This document shows, one piece after another, positions 14,093 through 37,836 of a DNA stretch of 37,836 nt. The stretch's first letter is position 1; each line of letters starts with the position of its first letter. Origin of the DNA: an uncultured bacterium. GTDB lineage: Bacteria; UBP6; UBA1177. The position numbers and the translations under genes are program-made. Below the pieces are notes generated by a model. That model was not told the origin of the DNA, did not search any database, and worked only from the letters and a program-made list of their open reading frames with translations. The stretch lies in contig CAJOFY010000027.1 of the NCBI GenBank assembly GCA_905233945.1, positions 1 to 37,836 of the forward strand, in the 5' to 3' direction.

Positions 14093-14172
14093 TTTTTTTC
14101 TTTTAATTTTGACCGGAGTATGAAATGAAAAAGATTTTTCTTATGTTCGTAATCTTTTTTAGTGTTATGGCC
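14093..14172 (+). repeat. 80-bp leader/signal-peptide repeat, copy 1
   Basis: This stretch (T-tract, ribosome site GGAG, start codon and signal-peptide codons) is identical base for base to 16810-16889 upstream of and within the second protease gene. The rest of the two genes has clearly diverged. Confidence 0.95.
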
Positions 14173-16809: not shown

Positions 16810-16889
16810 TTTTTTTCTTTTAATTTTGACCGGAGTATGAAATGAAAAAGATTTTTCTTATGTTCGTAATCTTTTTTAGTGTTATGGCC
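16810..16889 (+). repeat. 80-bp leader/signal-peptide repeat, copy 2
   Basis: Identical to 14093-14172. It covers the last 32 bases of the untranslated leader and the first 16 codons of the second S8 gene. Confidence 0.95.
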
Positions 16890-27305: not shown

Positions 27306-28841
27306 ATGGCAACAATCGAAGAAAAACTGGCTGCTCTCAGAGCTAAAAAAGAGAAGGGAAAGCTCGGCGGCGGCGAAAAGAGGATCGAAGCTCAGCATGC
27401 GAAAGGCAAGCTCACGGCACGCGAAAGAATCGCTAAACTTCTTGACGGCGGCAGCTTCGAGGAAATCGACGCTCTCCGCTGCGCAAACGGCGCAAATGCT
27501 GCAATCGGCGACGGCGTAGTTACCGGTTACGGCACGATTGACGGAAGAAAAGTTTTCGTTTTCGCACAGGATTTCACAGTTGCAGGCGGCTCGCTCGGCA
27601 AGATCGTCGGCGAAAAGATCTGCAAAGTTCTCGACCTTGCAATGAAAGTCGGAGCTCCGGTTGTCGGTCTCAACGATTCCGGCGGCGCAAACATTCCTGA
27701 AGGTGTCCACGCCCTTGACGGTTACGGCGAAATCTTCAAGAGAAACACTCTTGCAAGCGGCGTTATCCCGCAGATCTCGGCTGTTTACGGTCCGTGTGCA
27801 GGCGGCGCTGTTTACTCTCCGGCACTTACCGACTTCGTTTTCATGACAGATACGAATTCATACATGTTCCTTACCGGCCCGAAAGTCGTAAAGACCGTAA
27901 CCCACGAAGATGTTTCGGTTGAAGATTTGGGCGGCGCGGCAGTCCACATGACAAAATCGGGTGTCGCACACTTCTCTCACGCTACGGAAGAAGAGAGCAT
28001 CGCTGCTATCAGACAGCTTTTGTCTTACCTGCCTTCCAACAACGCTGAAGAGCCTCCGATGGTAGAGCCGACTGATCCTTTCGACAGAATGGAAGAAGCT
28101 CTCAACCAGATCATCCCCGAGAACCCGAACAAAGGATACGACATGAAGCAGGTCATCGCTATGGTCGTTGACAACAGCGAGTTCTTCGAAGTTATGCCGC
28201 AGTACGCGACCAACATGATCGTCGGTTTCGCAAGACTCAACGGCAGAACAGTCGGTATCGTCGGCAACCAGCCGAACGTTCTTGCAGGATGCCTTGACAT
28301 CAACGCTTCCGACAAAGCTGCAAGATTCGTCCGCTTCTGCGACGCTTTCAACGTTCCGATAATCACTTTCGTCGACACTCCCGGATTCCTTCCGGGCACA
28401 GGCCAGGAATACGGCGGCGTCATCAGACACGGAGCGAAGATGCTTTTCGCATACAGCGAAGCAACAGTTCCGAAGATCACGGTCGTTACCAGAAAATCGA
28501 CGGGCGGCGCATACCTCGCTATGGCTTCGAAAAACCTCAGATGCGATATGAACTACGCTTGGCCGACCGCTCAGATCGCAGTCATGGGCGCAAAAGGCGC
28601 AGTCGAAATCATTATGAGAAAAGAACTCGAAGCTGCTGAAGACAAGGCGAAATTCCTCGCTGAGCAGGAAGAGCTTTACAACGAAAACGTTGCAAATCCC
28701 TACATCGCTGCACAGCACGGATACATTGACGACATTTTTGAGCCGAAGACGACAAGACCGCGTCTTATCAAGGCTCTCGAAATGCTCATCACGAAGAATG
28801 ACGACCTTCCGGCTAAGAAACACGGCAACATTCCGCTGTAG
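27306..28841 (+). CDS. mmdA: Methylmalonyl-CoA decarboxylase alpha subunit (carboxyltransferase)
   Basis: A 511-residue acyl-CoA carboxyltransferase with two crotonase-like halves. It moves the carboxyl group from methylmalonyl-CoA to the biotin carrier. Visible motifs include [30 protein letters not shown], the oxyanion region [14 protein letters not shown], and in the C-terminal half [13 protein letters not shown] and [14 protein letters not shown]. The neighbours (OadG, biotin carrier, Na+ pump beta subunit, and no biotin carboxylase) point to a decarboxylase rather than a propionyl-CoA carboxylase. Strong AGGAGG site. It is GC-richer and more codon-biased than its neighbours, suggesting high expression. 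Confidence 0.93.
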
Positions 28842-28849
28842 GAGGAACG

Positions 28850-29278
28850 ATGATTCAGCATATAAGTTTAATTCAGTCCGCGGTCGCTTTCTCGGCTGAC
28901 CTGACGAAGTCCGACTGGGCTGTAATCAAAGCCCTTCCGTTTATCGGAATCGGGGTCGTTCTCAGCGGTCTGGCGATACTCGCGATAGTTCTTTCGCAGT
29001 TCTACCGCCTTGCAGGAAAAGACGCGAAACCGGCTCCTGTAGCGGCTCCGGCACCTGCACCTGCAGCTCCCGAGAAAAAGGAAGAGGCACCTGCTACGGA
29101 AGAGAGCGAGCTTGAGCAGATCGCAGCTATGATCGGTCTTTCGATCTACATGACCGAAAGCTCCGACAAGGTATATCTCACCGAGACGAAGCAGTATTAC
29201 AACAACAATCCGTGGACAAGCGAAAGTTTGGCAAAACAGTCCCGCCGTTTCAAAAGATGGCAGGCAGTAAAAAAATAG
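28850..29278 (+). CDS. OadG-family small subunit of the decarboxylase
   Basis: A 142-residue membrane subunit. One transmembrane helix (about residues 20-46, VIKALPFIGIGVVLSGLAILAIVL) is followed by an Ala/Pro-rich linker and a cytoplasmic tail ending in basic residues. In oxaloacetate and methylmalonyl-CoA decarboxylases this subunit joins the alpha subunit to the membrane pump. It starts eight bases after mmdA with GGAGGA upstream. The C-terminal YNNNPWTSESLAKQSRRFKRW block resembles the tail of Bacteroidetes OadG proteins. Confidence 0.85.
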   Translation: MIQHISLIQSAVAFSADLTKSDWAVIKALPFIGIGVVLSGLAILAIVLSQFYRLAGKDAKPAPVAAPAPAPAAPEKKEEAPATEESELEQIAAMIGLSIYMTESSDKVYLTETKQYYNNNPWTSESLAKQSRRFKRWQAVKK

Positions 29279-29290
29279 TGAGGAGACGAG

Positions 29291-29743
29291 ATGAAAAAGT
29301 ATGAACTTACGATAAAAGGAAAAAAATTCGATGTCGAAGTCAAAGATTTCGGCGGCGCGACGGCTAGAGTCGCTGTAAACGGCAACGAATACGATGTTGA
29401 CATTACCTACAAAGGCGGTGAACCCGTTGCGTTCACTCCGGCTGCACCGAGACCGGCTGCTGCAAGACCCGCTGCCGCTGCTGCACCTGTTGCCGCTGCT
29501 CCGGCTGCTGCACCTGCAGGCGATGTAAGCGGAAACAACGTTGTTGCTCCGATGCCCGGACTTATCATGAAAGTCCTCGTTAAAGTCGGCGACACCGTAA
29601 CCGCAGGACAGAAAGTCATGACTATGGAAGCTATGAAGATGGAAAACGACATCAACTCCGGAACTGCTGGAACAGTTAAAGCTGTTCTTGTCAAGGAAGG
29701 CGACAATGTCAAGGAACACCAGCCGCTTGTAACAATTGGTTAA
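29291..29743 (+). CDS. mmdC: Biotin carboxyl carrier subunit
   Basis: A 150-residue biotinyl protein. It has an N-terminal beta-rich region, an Ala/Pro linker (about residues 50-77), then the biotinyl domain starting APMPGLIMKVLVKVGD with biotin acceptor Lys116 in EAMKMEND. It carries CO2 from the alpha subunit to the beta subunit. AGGAGA precedes the ATG. Confidence 0.94.
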   Translation: MKKYELTIKGKKFDVEVKDFGGATARVAVNGNEYDVDITYKGGEPVAFTPAAPRPAAARPAAAAAPVAAAPAAAPAGDVSGNNVVAPMPGLIMKVLVKVGDTVTAGQKVMTMEAMKMENDINSGTAGTVKAVLVKEGDNVKEHQPLVTIG

Positions 29744-29752
29744 GAGGCTAAA

Positions 29753-31657
29753 ATGAAGAAAAGTATAATTTTAATTCTCGCTCTTTTCCTGAGCTTCCTT
29801 CTTTTCGCTCAGGAAGAGCAGCCGGCGCCGGAGGATCTGAATCCGGCACCGCAGCAGAACGTGCAGCTGCGCAATCCGAACCATGTCAGAAATCTTCCTC
29901 CTTTCCAGCAGAGAAGACCCGGAGCGGGTGCAAACGCTATGTTTACTGGACATAAGGAAAATGCGTCTCTTGTCAGACTAGAGATCGAATACGATACTCT
30001 TGACAACCAGCATCAGCAGAAAACGGAATACGCGGCGATTGTTTCTGACAACGTTGTAGAGGGAACACCAGAGTTCAAGACGATTGCGGAACACCGCGAC
30101 GAAAAGACGATAGGCAGATACCTTATGATCACCGGTCTTGAAGCGATTCTTCCCAATACAAAGGCGAAGAATCCGGCAAATCTTACGGAAATTGATCTTG
30201 AATCATTCAATCCGGAAAACCAGCACTACAAAGTCACGGCGATATTCCCCGACGGAGATACGAAGAGTTACAAACACTCCGACCTTCTCCTTGCCGACAA
30301 CGGTGTCGCTTTCATCAACTTCGATGCTCCGGAAGGCAAGTATCCGGTTATGCTGAGCGGCGAGTCTGCAAACGATGTAACGCTTACACGTACGCTTTCG
30401 ATCAAAAACTTCGGCAAAACTTATGAAGTAACCCCGCTTTTCATCAATTTCTCGCTCCGTTCGTCAGGAACGATGGAATATTACCTTCAGAAGAACAGAA
30501 GTTTCTTTGCCCGTTTCTTCAACACCACGGCTGTCGCTCACATCACGATAGGAAACCTGATAATGATGCTCGTTGCGTTCATTTTCATTTTCCTCGCGAT
30601 TGCGAAAGACTATGAGCCGCTTCTTCTTCTCCCGATCGGTTTTGGTATCCTTATCGGAAACATTCCGACTGCGGCAGGCGTTCAGATCGGCGTTTACGAT
30701 CCGGGCTCAGTTCTCAATTATCTCTACTTCGGAGTTCTGAAAGGTATCTATCCTCCGCTTATTTTCCTTGGAATAGGCGCAATGACCGACTTCTCCTACA
30801 TGATCGCTAACCCGAAACTTATCCTTATCGGCGGCGGTGCTCAGGTCGGTATTTTCGCGGCGTTCCTTATTGCGATTTTCCTTGGATTCAATATTCAGGA
30901 AGCTGCTTCTATCGGTATCATCGGCGGCGCTGACGGTCCTACGGCTATTTTCACGACAGGCCTCATGGCTCCGCACCTTTTGGGCGCAGTTGCTATCGCG
31001 GCTTACTCGTACATGGCTCTCGTTCCGGTTATCCAGCCACCGATCGTAAAACTACTTACGACCAAAAAGGAAAGACTTATCCGCATGAAACCGCCGCGCG
31101 TAGTTTCAAAGCGTGAAAGAGTTCTTTTCCCGATAGTTGCGTTCATCGTCTGCACATTCATCGCTCCCGGCGGACTTCCACTTATCGGTATGCTCCTTCT
31201 CGGCAACATCATCAAGGAATCTGGTGTAACTGACAGACTTTCGAAGACTGCAAGCAACGCGCTTATCGATATCGTAACCGTTCTCATCGGTATCACGGTC
31301 GGTGCTTCGACAAGTGCTCAGACCTTCCTTACAGCCGCTTCGATCAAAATTTTCGCTCTCGGCGCACTTTCCTTCATGATCTCCACTGCCGGCGGCGTTC
31401 TGATCGCGAAACTCATAAACTGCTTCCTCAAACCGGGCAACAAACTCAACCCGATCATCGGATGCGCCGGTGTTTCGGCAGTTCCCGACAGTGCACGTGT
31501 TGCACAGAATATCGGTAAACAGGCTGATCCCACGAACTACCTTCTTATGCACGCAATGGCTCCGAACGTAGCAGGCGTTTCTCGGAATCATCCCGCACTA
31601 AGCGGTTCATTGCTTGTTAAGATTCTTTACGGGCTTCCTTCGGGAAGCCTTTTTTGA
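29753..31657 (+). CDS. mmdB: Na+-translocating methylmalonyl-CoA decarboxylase beta subunit, with N-terminal extension and altered C-terminus
   Basis: Membrane pump that decarboxylates carboxybiotin and exports Na+. Of its 634 residues, the first 19 form a signal peptide. Residues about 20-255 are a non-family, probably periplasmic extension, and the beta-subunit core runs from about 260. The core has GGADGPTAIF and NPIIGCAGVSAVPDSAR, which match the Asp203 and the Asn373/Gly377/Ser382/Arg389 set of Klebsiella OadB. After HAMAPNVAGV the expected last helix is lost: the frame reads SRNHPALSG..., passes through the terminator hairpin and stops at 31655-31657. Bases 31061-31579 recur at 35760-36278. 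Activity may survive, since the key residues are upstream of the break. Confidence 0.88.
   Translation: MKKSIILILALFLSFLLFAQEEQPAPEDLNPAPQQNVQLRNPNHVRNLPPFQQRRPGAGANAMFTGHKENASLVRLEIEYDTLDNQHQQKTEYAAIVSDNVVEGTPEFKTIAEHRDEKTIGRYLMITGLEAILPNTKAKNPANLTEIDLESFNPENQHYKVTAIFPDGDTKSYKHSDLLLADNGVAFINFDAPEGKYPVMLSGESANDVTLTRTLSIKNFGKTYEVTPLFINFSLRSSGTMEYYLQKNRSFFARFFNTTAVAHITIGNLIMMLVAFIFIFLAIAKDYEPLLLLPIGFGILIGNIPTAAGVQIGVYDPGSVLNYLYFGVLKGIYPPLIFLGIGAMTDFSYMIANPKLILIGGGAQVGIFAAFLIAIFLGFNIQEAASIGIIGGADGPTAIFTTGLMAPHLLGAVAIAAYSYMALVPVIQPPIVKLLTTKKERLIRMKPPRVVSKRERVLFPIVAFIVCTFIAPGGLPLIGMLLLGNIIKESGVTDRLSKTASNALIDIVTVLIGITVGASTSAQTFLTAASIKIFALGALSFMISTAGGVLIAKLINCFLKPGNKLNPIIGCAGVSAVPDSARVAQNIGKQADPTNYLLMHAMAPNVAGVSRNHPALSGSLLVKILYGLPSGSLF
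31061..31604 (+). repeat. mmdB 3'-end direct repeat, copy 1
   Basis: Bases 31061-31579 align without gaps to 35760-36278 (spacing 4699). I count 25 mismatches, all between 31140 and 31480. A 12-base difference follows, then 24 more identical bases (31581-31604 against 36292-36315). Confidence 0.95.
31632..31655 (+). terminator. Intrinsic terminator after mmdB copy 1 (overlapped by the reading frame)
   Basis: GGCTTCC - TTCG - GGAAGCC (31632-31649) followed by six T. The mmdB frame reads through the hairpin and ends on the TGA formed by the last T, which supports loss of the original stop codon. Confidence 0.9.
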
Positions 31658-31700
31658 GTGAGGAAATATATTTTTTCAACAAATAAATATAGGTGCTTAA

Positions 31701-33788
31701 ATGAATGCAGAAAGAGAAAATGTTATAGATACAATGTTTGATAACAAAAGACAGTATCAAATACCAGTTTATCAAAGAAATTATGATTGGATGAAAGATA
31801 ATTGCTTGGAATTGTTTAATGATGTCATTACTGCATATGAAAAGCAAAAGACGCATTTTTTAGGCACTATAGTTCAAGTTCAACAAGATGAAGAATGCGG
31901 ACTTAAACACTTTATTATAGTTGATGGTCAACAGAGGATGACCTCTATTTATCTTATGTTAAAAGCCTTATATGATAAAGCTTCCGATGATTCAGATAAA
32001 GAAGAAATAGAAGGACTGTTATTTAACAAGTCTTCCTCGCATGATTTTGATAAGCAGGAAAAAAACAAACTTAAACTAAAACCGATAAAAACTGACAATG
32101 AACAGTTTATGTTGCTTATGAATAATAAACAGGAATATATGAATAGAAGTTCTAATATTTGGATAAACTATGATTATTTTTGCTCTTTAATTGATGCTAA
32201 ATTGGCTTTAGAATATAAAATTAGAAATATTTTGAATGGATTGAAACGTCTCATAGTAGTCATGATTTCCTTAAAAGAACCTGATGATGATCCTCAAGTA
32301 ATTTTTGAAAGAATTAATTCGACCGGTGAAGATTTGAAACTCGCGGATCTTATTCGTAATTATCTTTTAATGACTGATAAAAATATGGATAATTTATTTG
32401 AGGAATATTGGCTTCCGGTTGAGAGTGTGCTTGGGAAAGTTGAAATTAATAAATATTTTTTGACTTTTATTATTTTTAAGCTTGGGGAAGTTAAAGAAAG
32501 TTATGCTTATCAATACTTCAAAAAGTGGGCTGATGCCTCAAATCTTACTCACGAAGAAATAATGAAAGATTTGAAATATTATTCTAAATTCTATGAAGCA
32601 TTTGTGGGATTACAAAACGAATATTCACGAGAAGTTAATAATTATCTAGCTGCATATAGAAGTTTAAATCAATCAACAATTTATCCTTTCCTGTTTAGTG
32701 TGTTTGATGATTTTGAACAATCAGTAATTAACGAAGAATCTTTGTTGCAGATTTTGCAGTTTTATTTGAATTACACGATAAGAAGAATGGTGACAGGAGT
32801 TCCTTCCAATTCGTTAAGAGGCCTATATAGAACCCTGTATAAGAGAATATTTAAGGTCGAAATAGATAAAGAGAATTATCTTGATAGAATTTATACTTTT
32901 ATGGCTAGGGATTTAGCTTATACTAAGGATGCGACCCCGAATGATACGATTTTTAAGGATAGGTTGATGAATGAAAATCTTTATAAAAATCGGAATCTAT
33001 GTAAATATTTGCTGTCAATTTTAGAAAATGGCATAGGCATTATTAAAGAGACTGTAGAAATTGATGAGGAGACCACTATTGAGCATATAATGCCTCAAAA
33101 TAAAGCTAGTGTCGAATGGCGCAAAGACTTGGGGAATGACTATGAATTGGTTTATGATAAATACCTTAATACATTGGGTAATTTGTCTTTAACTGGCTAT
33201 AATAGCGAATTGTCGGACAAAACTTTTAAAGAAAAAGTGAACATGATAAAAGCAAATTCTAAGTTTGTTGAACTTAATAAGGATGTGATTGATAAGCAGA
33301 TATGGAATGAGGAATGCATTTTAGCACGAGCTGATAGATTAAGTAGCAAACTGCTTTCTGATTTACGGCTTCCTGAGGTCTTTGGAAAGAAAGTAAATGG
33401 TAAGAATGCTTACCATGTGTATGATGTTTGTAGTTTTATCAATAAAAAGTTTACGAATTTTATATTTTTAGGTGAAAATGTAGAAATATATAGTGCAAGA
33501 GAAATGTTGCTGAAATTTATTGCAATGTTGTACACGTTATATAGCGAAAAATTTCTGGAATTGGCTGCTGATGATTGGAAAGGCGGTAAATCAGCAAATA
33601 CTCCAAAGCTGACTACGAATCCAAATAAATTAAGAGAGGCAAGGGAAATATTGAATACAGGGATTTATGTGGAAGTAAATCTCAATGCTGATAGTGTTGT
33701 TGGTTTTATTAAAAGCCTAATGGAAGAATTTGATATAGATGCGGAAGAATTTATTTTTTATACTAAATCAGATGATGATTTGCAATGA
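31701..33788 (+). CDS. GmrSD-type restriction endonuclease (DUF262-DUF1524)
   Basis: A 695-residue type IV-like restriction protein. The DUF262 (GmrS-like) N-terminus has IPVYQRNYDW at 21-30 and the DGQQR motif at 75-79. FERINSTGEDLKLADLIRNYLL follows near 205-230. DUF1524 (GmrD-like, HNH nuclease) has TIEHIMPQ with His462, then LNTLGNLSLTGYNSELSDKTF. Residues about 560-695 form an extra C-terminal region I do not recognise. The family uses NTP hydrolysis to cut modified, e.g. glucosylated, phage DNA; the target here is unknown. The ATG has only a weak AGGTG site. Confidence 0.88.
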   Translation: MNAERENVIDTMFDNKRQYQIPVYQRNYDWMKDNCLELFNDVITAYEKQKTHFLGTIVQVQQDEECGLKHFIIVDGQQRMTSIYLMLKALYDKASDDSDKEEIEGLLFNKSSSHDFDKQEKNKLKLKPIKTDNEQFMLLMNNKQEYMNRSSNIWINYDYFCSLIDAKLALEYKIRNILNGLKRLIVVMISLKEPDDDPQVIFERINSTGEDLKLADLIRNYLLMTDKNMDNLFEEYWLPVESVLGKVEINKYFLTFIIFKLGEVKESYAYQYFKKWADASNLTHEEIMKDLKYYSKFYEAFVGLQNEYSREVNNYLAAYRSLNQSTIYPFLFSVFDDFEQSVINEESLLQILQFYLNYTIRRMVTGVPSNSLRGLYRTLYKRIFKVEIDKENYLDRIYTFMARDLAYTKDATPNDTIFKDRLMNENLYKNRNLCKYLLSILENGIGIIKETVEIDEETTIEHIMPQNKASVEWRKDLGNDYELVYDKYLNTLGNLSLTGYNSELSDKTFKEKVNMIKANSKFVELNKDVIDKQIWNEECILARADRLSSKLLSDLRLPEVFGKKVNGKNAYHVYDVCSFINKKFTNFIFLGENVEIYSAREMLLKFIAMLYTLYSEKFLELAADDWKGGKSANTPKLTTNPNKLREAREILNTGIYVEVNLNADSVVGFIKSLMEEFDIDAEEFIFYTKSDDDLQ

Positions 33789-33921
33789 GTAGATATGGCT
33801 ATGTAATCGGGAGAAAATTTTTGATAAGTTATTTGTCAATAGTTGGAAAAATAGGATTAGATAGGTTGTGATTTGAAAATTTTTTGGGAAGAGTTTAATT
33901 GAAAAATTAAAATAAAAATAG

Positions 33922-33949
33922 TTGCAAATTAAGAAAAATTAAATACACT
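33922..33949 (+). promoter_or_regulatory. Possible promoter for the TIGR04255-Panacea cluster
   Basis: TTGCAA (33922-33927) and TACACT (33944-33949), 16 bases apart, lie about 20 bases before the start at 33971. The 182-base gap after the restriction gene is very AT-rich and otherwise featureless. Confidence 0.3.
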
Positions 33950-33970
33950 GCAAAACTTGGAGGTGGTGAC

Positions 33971-34792
33971 ATGGTAACCAGAGAAGATTTTCATTACAAT
34001 TTTCTTAAAAATGTTATAATTAGATTAGACTTCCAAGGAGTGCTGGAAACAGAAATGGACAAAGTGCTTGTCCTAATTAAACCATTTGCTAAAGAAAGAG
34101 GTTTCTCTAAATATGTTGAGAAAAATACGAAGCAAATAGATATTGCTTTTACAAATAATGAAACCCCGGAATCTATAGAAACAACCAATAAAATAAGAAA
34201 TCAAAAAGTCTATTCTTTTATTGATGAAAATCGCGGCTTTGCTTTGGGAGTTTCGAATACTTTTGTCTGTTTGCAGATCAACACGGTTCACTATGTTCCT
34301 TTTGATGAATACTGCGATATAATTCCGATAGTATCTGATTTCTATAAAAACAGTATCGATTTTTTTTCTGTTACGAGATTCGGAATTCGCAAGATCAATG
34401 AATGTCTGATTGAAAACAAGAACGAAATCGGGTACTATTTCAACCCGTCATATTTTAATTTCTACAATTGTATCGAAGAAGCGGATACCATTCAAAGCAA
34501 TCACGTAAATATATTTAAATGCGGCGAATACCATGTTAATTTGATAACAAATATTGCTCAGGGAAAGTTCGAGGGGAACCCGTTGTACAGCGTTCGCCTT
34601 GACATAGATACATATTTGGATAAATCGGAAGAAATATTATTGCTTCTGAGTGAGTCAGGAAAAATGACTGAAATGAATGACCTGATTTTTAAAATCTACA
34701 CATCCTCTTTAACCGATAAATTTATTTCGTTGTTAACATCGGATGACAATTTTGACAATACAATAATGCGCGGAGTTGAAAGAAATGACTAA
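33971..34792 (+). CDS. TIGR04255-like protein
   Basis: A 273-residue protein with no signal peptide or membrane helix. The pattern SFIDENRGFALGVSNTFVCLQINTVHY..FDEY followed by FFSVTRFGIRKINECLI resembles the sporadic TIGR04255 family. That family is often seen in accessory and defence regions and has no established biochemical role. GGAGG lies seven bases before the ATG. The stop overlaps the start of the Panacea gene by eight bases, so the two are co-translated. Family assignment is from pattern memory and moderately sure. Confidence 0.62.
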   Translation: MVTREDFHYNFLKNVIIRLDFQGVLETEMDKVLVLIKPFAKERGFSKYVEKNTKQIDIAFTNNETPESIETTNKIRNQKVYSFIDENRGFALGVSNTFVCLQINTVHYVPFDEYCDIIPIVSDFYKNSIDFFSVTRFGIRKINECLIENKNEIGYYFNPSYFNFYNCIEEADTIQSNHVNIFKCGEYHVNLITNIAQGKFEGNPLYSVRLDIDTYLDKSEEILLLLSESGKMTEMNDLIFKIYTSSLTDKFISLLTSDDNFDNTIMRGVERND

Positions 34793-35303
34793 TTCATACT
34801 TCAAATCATTTGCCATGAGCGAACCGAATATAAGTGAAACCTTGAATAATCCGGATCATTGTTTTGGAGACATCTATGATTTGGCGAACTCGTTTTTGGC
34901 CATTGAATCAATGACGCATAAAAAATTACAGAAGTTGTGCTACTATGCAAAGGCTTGGTATCTTGCTATTAACGACACAAATTTAGTGAGCGAACCTTTT
35001 GAAGCATGGGTTCATGGAGCGGTTCAACCACAACTTTATCAAAAATACCGGGCTTATGGATTTCAGCCTATTCCAATGTATACAGGCTCTCTTAATGATT
35101 TGCCGGAAGAATTCTTGAGTTTTGCAAGGGAAATTTTTAGCTCATACGGTGATTTGACAGGTGACGATCTGGAAAAGCTGAATCACAGTGAAATGCCTTG
35201 GCAAAATGCACGAAAAGGACTTGAACCATGGCAAAACTCAGGCAACGAAATAAGCGAAGAAGACATGAAAACTTATTATCGAGGTCTGTTGAGTGAAGAA
35301 TAA
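34785..35303 (+). CDS. Panacea-domain (DUF4065) antitoxin-like protein
   Basis: A 172-residue protein with the Panacea/SocA-like signature: IYDLANSFLAIESMTHKKLQKLCYYAKAWYLA, then EPFEAWVHGAVQPQLYQKYRAYG, and the late PWQNAR...ISEEDMKTYYRGLL. Panacea domains neutralise many unrelated toxins encoded beside them. ATG 34785 is preferred to TTG 34776 because GGAG at 34772-34775 is better spaced. It overlaps the gene before by 8 bases and the gene after by 11. Confidence 0.85.
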   Translation: MTNSYFKSFAMSEPNISETLNNPDHCFGDIYDLANSFLAIESMTHKKLQKLCYYAKAWYLAINDTNLVSEPFEAWVHGAVQPQLYQKYRAYGFQPIPMYTGSLNDLPEEFLSFAREIFSSYGDLTGDDLEKLNHSEMPWQNARKGLEPWQNSGNEISEEDMKTYYRGLLSEE

Positions 35304-35733
35304 GGATATTCCAAAGGCAACGAAACCTTCACAAAATCAAATAAAAAAACCTGATTTCATTCCAACAGATGACAAGATAAAATTTTCTTTTTCTGCCTTG
35401 GAGAGAAATGAGTATTTTGATTTTGATGTAAGTCATCCGAATTGGGCATCAAAATTGTTTGATATGCTTAAAAATGCATCAAATTTTTCCTTTGAAGATT
35501 TGAAAAAACTTGGAACTTATAGAGTTCACAATCATGAAAATGCTAAACCGCCATGTTCATTACCTAACGGAGTTAGACTAAAAGATCTTTATCAAATTCG
35601 CATTGACAAATCACACGGTGGAATACACGGTGTGTTCTATGAAAATATCTTTTATGTAATATGGCTCGATCCCCTGCATAACATGTATCCAGATTCTAAA
35701 TATGGCGGTTTGAAAACTATCAATCCTTTATAA
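35293..35733 (+). CDS. Candidate toxin with RelE-like C-terminus
   Basis: A 146-residue small basic protein starting at GTG inside the Panacea gene, with GAGG nine bases upstream. The N-terminal 30 residues are Lys/Pro-rich and probably disordered. The end (LKDLYQIRID, then GIHGVFYENIFYVIWLDPLHNMYPD) has the strand-strand and terminal His/Tyr pattern of RelE/YoeB-like folds. Position next to a Panacea antitoxin suggests it is the toxin. This is inference; no family name is certain. Confidence 0.6.
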   Translation: MKNKDIPKATKPSQNQIKKPDFIPTDDKIKFSFSALERNEYFDFDVSHPNWASKLFDMLKNASNFSFEDLKKLGTYRVHNHENAKPPCSLPNGVRLKDLYQIRIDKSHGGIHGVFYENIFYVIWLDPLHNMYPDSKYGGLKTINPL

Positions 35734-35759
35734 AAAGCATATTTGTAAAAAAATTCTAA

Positions 35760-36323
35760 ACCAAAAAGGAAAGACTTATCCGCATGAAACCGCCGCGCGT
35801 AGTTTCAAAGCGTGAAAGAGTTCTTTTCCCGATAGTTGCATTCATCGTCTGCACATTCATCGCTCCCGGCGGACTTCCTCTGATCGGTATGCTGCTTCTC
35901 GGCAACATCATCAAGGAATCGGGCGTAACAGACAGACTTTCGAAGACTGCAAGCAACGCTCTTATCGATATCGTAACCGTTCTTATCGGTATCACGGTCG
36001 GTGCTTCTACAAGTGCTCAGACCTTTCTGACACCTGCTTCGATCAAAATTTTTGCTCTCGGCGCACTTTCTTTCATGATTTCAACAGCCGGCGGCGTTCT
36101 GATCGCGAAACTCATCAACTGCTTCCTGAAACCGGGCAACAAACTCAATCCGATCATCGGATGCGCTGGTGTTTCCGCGGTTCCCGACAGTGCACGTGTT
36201 GCACAGAATATCGGTAAACAGGCTGATCCCACGAACTACCTTCTTATGCACGCAATGGCTCCGAACGTAGCAGGCGTTGGCAGGTATATTGCTCGGAATC
36301 ATCCCGCACTAAGCGTTATTTAA
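35760..36323 (+). pseudogene. Displaced 3' fragment of mmdB (copy 2)
   Basis: Encodes the last ~185 residues of a decarboxylase beta subunit, starting abruptly at 'TKKERLIRMKPPR'. It has no start or ribosome site of its own. It is 519 bases collinear with mmdB copy 1. Of 25 differences, 24 are silent and one changes Ala to Pro. After VAGV the frame reads GRYIARNHPALSVI and stops at 36321-36323. Another frame over the same bases reads ALAGILLGIIPH and stops at 36310, which looks like the family's normal last helix. It is probably not translated. Confidence 0.85.
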
Positions 36324-36341
36324 GCTTTTCGTGATTTTACG

Positions 36342-36367
36342 GGCTCCCTTAGGGGAGCCTTTTTTTT
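36342..36367 (+). terminator. Intrinsic terminator after mmdB copy 2
   Basis: GGCTCCC - TTAG - GGGAGCC followed by eight T. It is the counterpart of the hairpin at 31632, in the same position relative to the repeat, but differs in stem sequence. Confidence 0.92.
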
Positions 36368-36388
36368 ATTTATTTTGTTAGCTTCTAT

Positions 36389-36427
36389 TGAAAAAAATTG
36401 CCCGAAGTGGCAAAAATTTTCAGTGGA
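36389..36427 (+). repeat. DUF4143 leader repeat, unit 1
   Basis: 39 bases matching 36462-36500 at 35 positions. It contains the inverted repeat TTGCC-CGAAGT-GGCAA. Confidence 0.85.
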
Positions 36428-36461
36428 AGTTGATTTCTAATAGCTTTGAAGTATATTCGAC

Positions 36462-36500
36462 TGAAAAAAAATGCCCAAAGTGGCAAAAATTTTCAACGGA
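36462..36500 (+). repeat. DUF4143 leader repeat, unit 2
   Basis: Second 39-base unit, 73 bases downstream of the first. It contains TGCC-CAAAGT-GGCA and ends in the bases that begin the ribosome site of the ATPase gene. Confidence 0.85.
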
Positions 36501-36506
36501 GGTCGC

Positions 36507-37742
36507 ATGAACGGGATAAAAAGAAACACTTATCTGGACAAACTTATAAGCAGTCGGGGAAACGGACTTATAAAAATAGTGACGGGAATCAGGCGTTGCG
36601 GCAAATCGTATCTGCTTGATCCTATTTTTAAAAATTATTTGATTGAAACAGGGATCCCTGAAGATCATATTATTAAAATAGAGCTGGACAGGGCGGCTAA
36701 CAGAAAATATCACAAAGATCCTGAAGCTTTCGACAAATATATCCGTTCTTTCGTAAAGGATGAGCAGATTTACTACATAATTCTGGATGAAATACAACTG
36801 GTTGAAGGTTTTGAACTGGTGCTTAACGGTCTTTTGTATGAAAGGAATCTGGATATTTATGTTACAGGAAGCAATTCGAAGTTTCTTTCTTCTGATATAA
36901 TTACTGAATTCAGGGGACGTGGCGATCAGATAAGAGTTTATCCGCTTACATTTTCGGAATTCTTGGCGGCTTGCGGCAAAGATAAATACGATGCTTTGAA
37001 TGAATATCTTACTTTCGGCGGAATGCCGCTGATCCTTTCAAAAGAGAGCGATTCGGAGAAATCAAAGTATCTCAAGGAACTTTTCGAAGAAACCTATTTC
37101 CGTGATATAATCGAGCGGAATAATGTGAAAAGAAAAGATGTGCTTGACGGTATCGTGAACGTGCTGGCATCTTCTGTCGGCTCTCTGACCAATCCGCTGA
37201 AAATTTATGACACTTTCAAAAGTAAGGGCGAAAAAGAGATTTCCCTGAATACAGTCAACTCTTATGTCGAACATCTGGAAAATGCCTTCATTGTCGAAAA
37301 AGCTCTGCGTTATGATATTAAAGGACGAAAATACATAAATACACCGTCAAAATATTATTTTTCCGATCTGGGGCTCCGCAATGCAAGGCTGAATTTCAGG
37401 CAGCAGGAAGATACTCATCTCATGGAAAACGCAATATTCAATGAACTTATTGCAAGAGGTTTCAATGTGGATGTCGGTGTTGTCGAGATTCGGGAAAACG
37501 GAAAACGCATTCAGACAGAAGTTGATTTTGTCTGCAACGAAGGAAACAACAGATACTATATTCAGTCTGCATTCAGCCTTGAAACACATGAAAAAACACT
37601 GCAGGAAAGCAGACCGCTGAACAATATTCCGGACAGCTTCAAAAAAATTATCGTCGTGAAGGATCATATAAAACCGTGGCGGACCGAGGACGGGATATTG
37701 ATAATCGGAATTTATGATTTTTTATTAGATGTCAATGAATAA
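36507..37742 (+). CDS. AAA ATPase with DUF4143 domain (2)
   Basis: A 411-residue ATPase. Walker A variant GIRRCGKS is at 27-34, Walker B is IILDEIQ, sensor-like YVTGSNSKFLSSDI follows, and FRGRGDQIRVYPLTFSEF and GGMPLIL precede the DUF4143 region. The C-terminal nuclease-like motif is degenerate: TEVDFVCNEGNNRYYIQSA lacks the ExK seen in the homologue at 25443. ATG 36507 follows GGAGG by four bases; the longer frame from 36471 would start inside the leader repeat. Function unknown. The 94 bases after its stop show no clear gene or strong terminator. Confidence 0.9.
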   Translation: MNGIKRNTYLDKLISSRGNGLIKIVTGIRRCGKSYLLDPIFKNYLIETGIPEDHIIKIELDRAANRKYHKDPEAFDKYIRSFVKDEQIYYIILDEIQLVEGFELVLNGLLYERNLDIYVTGSNSKFLSSDIITEFRGRGDQIRVYPLTFSEFLAACGKDKYDALNEYLTFGGMPLILSKESDSEKSKYLKELFEETYFRDIIERNNVKRKDVLDGIVNVLASSVGSLTNPLKIYDTFKSKGEKEISLNTVNSYVEHLENAFIVEKALRYDIKGRKYINTPSKYYFSDLGLRNARLNFRQQEDTHLMENAIFNELIARGFNVDVGVVEIRENGKRIQTEVDFVCNEGNNRYYIQSAFSLETHEKTLQESRPLNNIPDSFKKIIVVKDHIKPWRTEDGILIIGIYDFLLDVNE

Positions 37743-37836
37743 CAATCTATCAACAAGATCATCTTTCCGGCTATCTAAAAACAACTAAACAAAACCTTGT
37801 TTTGCCTTGAACGATGTCGGATTTTAAATAAATTTT

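Follow-up and report, generated by a model that had tools for sequence, protein, structure and literature searches.

A duplicated 3' end of mmdB around a putative defence cargo, and a variable site behind mmdB, in an uncultured bacterium of the UBP6 lineage

We identified a duplicated 3' end of mmdB, the gene for the beta subunit of a Na+-transporting decarboxylase, on both sides of an AT-rich group of putative defence genes in an uncultured bacterium (GTDB lineage Bacteria; UBP6; UBA1177; NCBI GenBank assembly GCA_905233945.1). The window analysed is the entire contig CAJOFY010000027.1 (37,836 nucleotides, forward strand; hereafter C27 of genome G000), which belongs to a draft assembly of 2.65 Mb in 56 contigs. 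Comparison with other genomes of the genus (G001 to G014) showed that the place at the 3' end of mmdB is variable and that it often, but not always, holds defence genes. The explanation we favour, with a probability of about 0.55, is that the mmdB 3' end is a recombination hotspot which works without an integrase, and that incoming DNA brought the cargo together with an mmdB end of its own and displaced the resident end.

The two copies of the mmdB 3' end are collinear and lie in the same orientation. Positions 31061-31579 match positions 35760-36278 over 519 bp with 25 mismatches (95% identity), so that the duplication proposed in a preliminary description made from the sequence alone holds in the assembly. 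After a gap, both copies share 24 further identical bp (31581-31604 and 36292-36315), and, in line with the claim that each copy has its own terminator, a text-pattern search found terminator-like hairpins at 31631 and 36341. A DNA search of the whole draft returned these two places and no others. Exact runs of 80 and 99 bp are common to both copies, far above chance; the 80-bp match opens both copies (31061 and 35760) and is followed by diverged sequence, and the 99-bp match is the longest direct repeat within the window. The 25 differing sites fall in 24 codons, 23 of which are changed synonymously, compared to 25% expected from random single changes (binomial p ~4e-13, ignoring codon and transition bias). 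Because 23 of the 24 differing codons are synonymous, the copies appear to have diverged inside working genes and to have been joined later. The divergence is interspecies-like: the difference between the copies is similar in size to that between species of this genus.

Both copies are damaged at the end of the coding sequence. In all 16 relatives read (12 of the same genus and 4 more distant) the protein ends in NVAGVIGSAIAAGILLG-[I/L]-[I/V]-PH-stop. Compared to these relatives, 29 nt are missing from copy 1 and 17 nt from copy 2, both from the same base just after ...GCAGGCGTT. The open reading frame (ORF) of mmdB reads on through the terminator, and its residues past NVAGV are unlike those of all 16 relatives. 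A search of this genome, which is rated 99.7% complete with 0.38% contamination, yielded no further mmdB and hence no intact end. Since both 3' ends are damaged, copy 2 does not represent an undamaged former end, nor does copy 1 give mmdB a normal end again. Both deletions start where the 99-bp exact repeat ends, and 99 bp is also the length of the overlap between C27 and contig C29 of the same draft. That both copies lose sequence from one and the same base is the observation hardest to explain, and the one that most calls the assembly into question. Elsewhere in the genus, mmdB was found in 13 of 15 genomes, this one included (it was not found in G002 and G007, which are rated 59% and 84% complete, respectively), and it is single-copy in the 12 other genomes, G004 showing two pieces owing to a frameshift. 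This frameshift lies near residue 489 (locus L044, G004:C21:1-8000), and protein identity to the window is 97% after it and 73% before it; G004 is either a second member of the genus with a disturbed mmdB 3' part or a case of draft error.

Seen by eye, the mmdB stop codon and the terminator behind it form a recognisable tail of 41-60 nt, of which at least three types occur in the genus. The tails behind copy 1 (T1) and copy 2 (T2) are of different types (Table 1). T1 is most similar to the mmdB tail of G009, with G005 as second-best match (59 bits), in a genus search in which at most 20 candidates were scored per genome. Tails of the T2 type are present not only at mmdB but also beyond the cargo in G006, in G012 and on C29 (90-95% identity over about 55-62 nt). 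A pattern for the T2 type allowing up to 3 mismatches, written after BLAST had already shown copies, gave six hits in 5 of the 15 genus genomes: three at mmdB ends (G001, G004 and T2 of the window) and three beyond cargo (G012, G006 and C29, the last being counted as an island beyond mmdB). The reversed pattern gave no hits. The tail was therefore rejected as a genome-wide repeat, given that the pattern, which covers one tail type, matched only mmdB ends and the islands beyond; the bare terminator hairpin, unlike the tail, is common. All three far tails start at a stop codon, which in G012 and C29 also ends the last cargo gene; the sequence of G006 looks alike. In G006 the far tail is located shortly before the conserved downstream gene and differs in type from the tail beside mmdB, as T1 differs from T2 in the window. 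No second tail was seen in the stretches read of G011, G009, G005 and G003.

To compare the site among relatives, we used the seven genomes of the genus that carry mmdB and a conserved, convergent downstream gene (532 aa) on one contig. Two of the seven sites are empty (G001 and G014, with about 60 bp between the genes) and five are filled, each in a different way: an AAA_14 ATPase in G009; three genes in G005, with one Lcl_C domain above and one below the cut-off; four genes in G003, including an Lcl_C protein, a specificity-subunit gene and a PIN protein; a Type I restriction system and other genes in G011 (HsdR by PADLOC only); and 13.7 kb in G006 with a SMEK-WD40 protein, a Type I system and two M78 peptidases. 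The same place, different cargo and empty sites are the marks of a hotspot, and both the empty site and the other cargo that the preliminary description had proposed to look for were thus found. In G012 a Type I system lies behind mmdB with other genes after it. G004, G008, G010 and G013 were read in part; here mmdB has other neighbours or the contig breaks off, and an island of this kind could not be made out. The 3' flanks vary among the 11 other genus genomes compared.

Restriction systems recur among these islands, with Type I systems in G006, G011, G012 and on C29 and a GmrSD-type gene in the window; candidate ATPases are present in the window and in G009. The earlier proposal of a hotspot for defence cargo is supported in part, namely as regards the empty and differently filled sites and the recurring restriction systems, but not for every site, as the cargo of G005 and part of that of G003 are not recognisably defence. 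Some modules are common to several islands. The Type I cassette of G012 is 96% identical to that of C29 over 3.9 kb; the shared part begins at the end of the mmdB terminator in G012 and directly after the ATPase gene in the genome of the window.

The island very probably continues on C29, because the last 99 bases of C27 are identical to the start of that contig. Beyond the overlap C29 carries the Type I restriction system, a further mmdB tail (C29:4803-4858) and then yidC (named by eye). Some 40 bp separate this tail from the 3' end of yidC (L154:4803-6492), a gene that is not beside mmdB in the relatives read, and a large rearrangement at a tail near this yidC is possible. As a native neighbour of mmdB, yidC was considered and rejected: in the other genus genomes in which both genes could be placed, the two are on separate contigs or, in G006, some 140 kb apart. 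About 130 bp before hsdR on C29 (L154:36-168) are conserved in G006 (90%) and G011 (83%), though the hsdR of G006 is of another type.

The cargo between the copies consists of four genes on the same strand with uninterrupted ORFs, and has a GC content of 31.9% compared to 50.9% for the mmd operon. The preliminary description had called it an AT-rich cargo with a GmrSD-type gene and a Panacea cluster, in agreement with the GC content and with the family matches PF03235, PF07510 and PF13274. The predicted 695-aa protein holds both the GmrSD_N and the GmrSD_C domain, as expected for a member of the GmrSD family. The Panacea domain of the 175-aa protein was confirmed; the neighbouring small gene matches MAG6450 at a sub-threshold score only, and its 146-aa product is possibly the partner of the Panacea protein. 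The genes for the TIGR04255, SocA/Panacea and MAG6450-like proteins overlap one another (33971-35733) and may form one three-gene toxin-antitoxin-like unit. A literature search on this three-gene module gave nothing on it among the matches listed, in which the names TIGR04255 and MAG6450 do not occur. The cargo likely acts in phage defence.

Outside the window's own copies, the best matches in 28 genomes of the phylum (own genome included) reached only 30% identity for the GmrSD protein and 33% for SocA. Plasmid matches were all below 60% identity (663 records for GmrSD and 27 for SocA). As GmrSD and SocA, the two proteins searched, lack a close relative in the other phylum genomes, an outside origin of the cargo is probable. 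We considered a phage or plasmid source and set it aside on searches of viral contigs and plasmids: no viral contig gave a confirmed relative of GmrSD, and the plasmid matches are those mentioned above. No viral contig carried the mmdB tail or an intact mmdB end when searched with exact patterns.

Table 1. Features of the window around the duplicated mmdB 3' end; positions are those of the whole window (aa, amino acids).
Feature	Position	Strand	Evidence or remark
mmd operon partners upstream of mmdB: 511-aa carboxyltransferase-like, 142-aa gamma-like and 150-aa biotin carrier-like	27306..29743	+	ORFs
mmdB, Na+-transporting decarboxylase beta subunit, C-terminus frameshifted	29753..31657	+	PF03977 474.5 bits (residues 268-610); TIGR01109 458.1 bits
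mmdB 3' end, copy 1	31061..31604	+	alignment of both copies
99-bp exact direct repeat, first occurrence (second 36180-36278)	31481..31579	+	both deletions begin at the repeat end
Deletion point of 29 nt, copy 1	31579..31580	+	comparison with relatives
Tail T1, former stop codon and terminator hairpin	31599..31655	+	best genus match G009 mmdB tail: 96% over 45 nt, 73.4 bits
GmrSD/DUF262-type nuclease, 695 aa (predicted)	31701..33788	+	PF03235 114.7 bits, PF07510 74.4 bits, both above cut-off; PADLOC 'Orf5' model 397.6 bits
TIGR04255 family protein, 273 aa	33971..34792	+	82.5 bits (cut-off 30)
SocA/Panacea antitoxin-like protein, 175 aa	34776..35303	+	PF13274 60.6 bits (cut-off 25.7); NF047745 58.4 bits (below cut-off 190)
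MAG6450-like protein, 146 aa	35293..35733	+	NF046006 30.0 bits (below cut-off 40)
mmdB 3' end, copy 2, without the first two thirds of the gene	35760..36315	+	alignment and whole-draft DNA search
Deletion point of 17 nt, copy 2	36278..36279	+	comparison with relatives
Tail T2, former stop codon and terminator	36310..36365	+	type also at mmdB in G001, G004, G011 and G012
AAA_14/DUF4143 ATPase, 423 aa, behind copy 2	36471..37742	+	PF13173, PF13635; PADLOC candidate model PDC-S01 397.8 bits
Last 99 bp of contig, same as first 99 bp of C29	37738..37836	+	sequence identity

If the mmdB 3' end is such a hotspot, DNA of a related species that carried the cargo directly behind its own mmdB end would have undergone homologous recombination at the conserved 3' region of mmdB. 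What came in, the 3' part of copy 1 with T1, would since then follow the resident mmdB 5' part, and the resident 3' end (copy 2), together with T2 and the neighbours behind it, the AAA_14 ATPase and then a Type I system, would survive as a remnant displaced downstream by 4.7 kb. Two routes seem likeliest: either a circle with an mmdB fragment entered by a single crossover, or one homologous crossover was combined with one end-joining event at 35757-35760. An abrupt rise of identity to relatives at 31061, caused by exchange of the 3' segment alone, was considered and rejected on a sliding comparison, which shows that the domain from about 30413 on is about equally conserved within the genus.

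The direction of the replacement is weakly indicated. In 31321-31579 copy 1 is 97.7% identical to both G009 and G012, compared to 95.4 and 95.0%, respectively, for copy 2. T2 with the sequence that follows is 90.5% identical to the native mmdB downstream of G011 (up to 36396) and 81% identical over 117 nt to the far tail of G006. Because T1 and copy 1 are G009-like and T2 continues like the native surroundings in G011, copy 2 with T2 could be what was resident, and the incoming DNA could comprise the 3' part of copy 1, T1 and the cargo. Phylogenetic trees of yidC, mmdA, the middle of mmdB and the mmdB 3' end (10 genomes) reject one another, with p <= 0.03 in every approximately unbiased (AU) test; recombination among these lineages is therefore common.

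Several observations weigh against a replacement of the resident end by an incoming one. As to direction, copy 2 too is closest to G009 in 31321-31579, and over 31061-31320 G003 is the nearest genome to either copy. The tree of the mmdB 3' end puts the two copies near each other, and the conflict among trees is not special to that end, as mmdA, the middle of mmdB and yidC conflict too. Both copies are out of frame beyond the deletion point, which would not be expected from a clean replacement. Of the 13 genus genomes with mmdB, only this one has duplicated mmdB coding sequence, and the genus search described above revealed no donor in which T1 adjoins this cargo. The continuation onto C29 rests on one 99-bp overlap.

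The most serious alternative, which we nevertheless hold to be unlikely, is an assembly chimera, in which reads of two close strains or species, or of a chromosome and a separate 4.7-kb circle of cargo and mmdB fragment, were joined via the shared mmdB sequence, the deletion point being an artefact of the join. The draft is in 56 contigs, and C27 overlaps C29 by 99 bp and C35 by 91 bp, as is seen in short-read graph assemblies; these two overlaps suggest an assembly word length near 100. That the 99-bp exact run of the copies ends exactly where both deletions start fits such a join. A shared graph node would allow another pairing of the halves, giving mmdB-T2-ATPase and a circle, and the intact mmdB end to be expected in a nearly complete genome is missing; the species-like divergence of the copies would also suit a mixture. 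On the other hand, re-paired halves would still keep both deletions, and the two contig overlaps are unequal. There is no N in 29500-37836, the cargo ORFs are uninterrupted, contamination is low, and tails are repeated beyond cargo in other assemblies as well. The case is a warning that a draft with a duplicated gene end may hide an unresolved circle or a strain mixture.

The integrase-free hotspot could be taken one step further, to a rather doubtful proposal, namely that the defence cassettes of the genus move without an enzyme of their own and use the duplicated mmdB end as homology that travels with them. Each cassette would have an mmdB tail behind it. A crossover between two such tails (55-60 bp in G006, G012 and C29, and more than 500 bp in the window) would release a circle of cassette and tail, and this circle would re-enter any mmdB end by a single crossover and leave a duplicated end behind. 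The window would then represent an event with a long homology arm.

Site-specific integration of the kind known from the element e14, which enters icd and rebuilds the icd 3' end, was raised in the preliminary description and appears improbable. It would require an element that brought an additional mmdB 3' end, entered at a core in the region of 31061-31140, and lost its integrase or never had one. The 80-bp exact match at the start of both copies, followed by divergence, resembles an att core with a replaced end, and the terminator-like hairpin behind each copy fits as well; like e14 in icd, the window has another copy of the gene end beyond the cargo, diverged by synonymous changes. This candidate core is found in this genome only. 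Against such integration, the far tails of G006, G012 and C29 start at the stop codon and not at the 80-bp stretch. Unlike in e14, the supplied end does not restore the reading frame, copy 1 being frameshifted after NVAGV. Among 37 proteins scanned with Pfam (7 of the window, the other 30 of relatives and of C29), no integrase, transposase or resolvase family was listed, as had been noted earlier for the integrase; the scan covered part of the island ORFs of the relatives (in G006, for example, ORFs other than the 124-aa and the last one), and for one WD40 protein the listing comprised 25 of 43 families. The absence of the tail and of an intact mmdB end from viral contigs, in exact-pattern searches, also argues against such an element. 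The earlier suggestion that the old end was displaced and a new one supplied agrees with the terminator data, but the supplied end is frameshifted, mmdB is not rebuilt and no att site is defined. A literature search on displaced gene ends of the e14 kind gave nothing on the point among the matches listed. No tRNA or tmRNA was found in the window. Outside the Pfam scan, an ORF of G013 (L040:14172-14777) looks by eye like a REP-type transposase.

Least probable of all is a tandem duplication in place followed by insertion of the cargo between the copies and decay, which would explain their shared orientation and order and the missing normal 3' end of both, but under which a free remnant would gain amino-acid changes, yet the changed codons are almost all synonymous, and T1 and T2 are different tail types.

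Among the neighbouring features, the subunit names of the three mmdB partners were given from gene order and by eye, with no family scan; relatives of the 511-aa gene precede mmdB in most fetched loci. Two 48-nt units of 85% identity (36383-36430 and 36456-36503) lie between T2 and the ATPase gene, and the first continues the sequence that also follows the far mmdB tail of G006. Further upstream, an 80-bp exact repeat (14093-14172 and 16810-16889) starts two neighbouring homologous genes (877 and 855 aa).

How defence genes move without an integrase is an open question, and a core-gene end with its terminator, found again on either side of defence cargo in several species of one genus, provides a concrete trace of exchange by homology that other lineages can be screened for. 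Hotspots without mobile elements and with recombination at the flanking core genes are known, as stated in a 2017 study (PMC5635113). The mmdB site resembles the hotspots described there in its variable cargo, including defence genes, between core genes, in the lack of an integrase among the proteins scanned and in lineage recombination in flanking genes; for the latter, the four segment trees conflict here, yidC included, and no excess was shown at the flank. It differs in that the end of the core gene is itself duplicated around the cargo and in that our comparison spans species of one genus. The core defence hotspots cDHS1 and cDHS2 of Pseudomonas aeruginosa, for which the authors suggest transfer via flanking homology (PMC10250203), likewise hold several kinds of defence system at a fixed place beside conserved genes. 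Their flanks hold RNA genes, which are known landing sites, whereas the landmark here is the stop codon and terminator of a protein gene. As for mechanism, which we infer here, homology-facilitated illegitimate recombination (PMC3240628), with one homologous and one non-homologous end, would give a junction like that at 35757-35760. The merodiploids described in PMC3784515 show that partial duplications can arise in DNA uptake, although those duplications are 100-900 kb long and bordered by repeats. A search of open-licence papers for mmdB or oxaloacetate decarboxylase genes as an integration site returned nothing among the matches listed. Compared to these systems, it is the duplication of a core-gene end on either side of the cargo that is uncommon; the hotspots themselves are already known.

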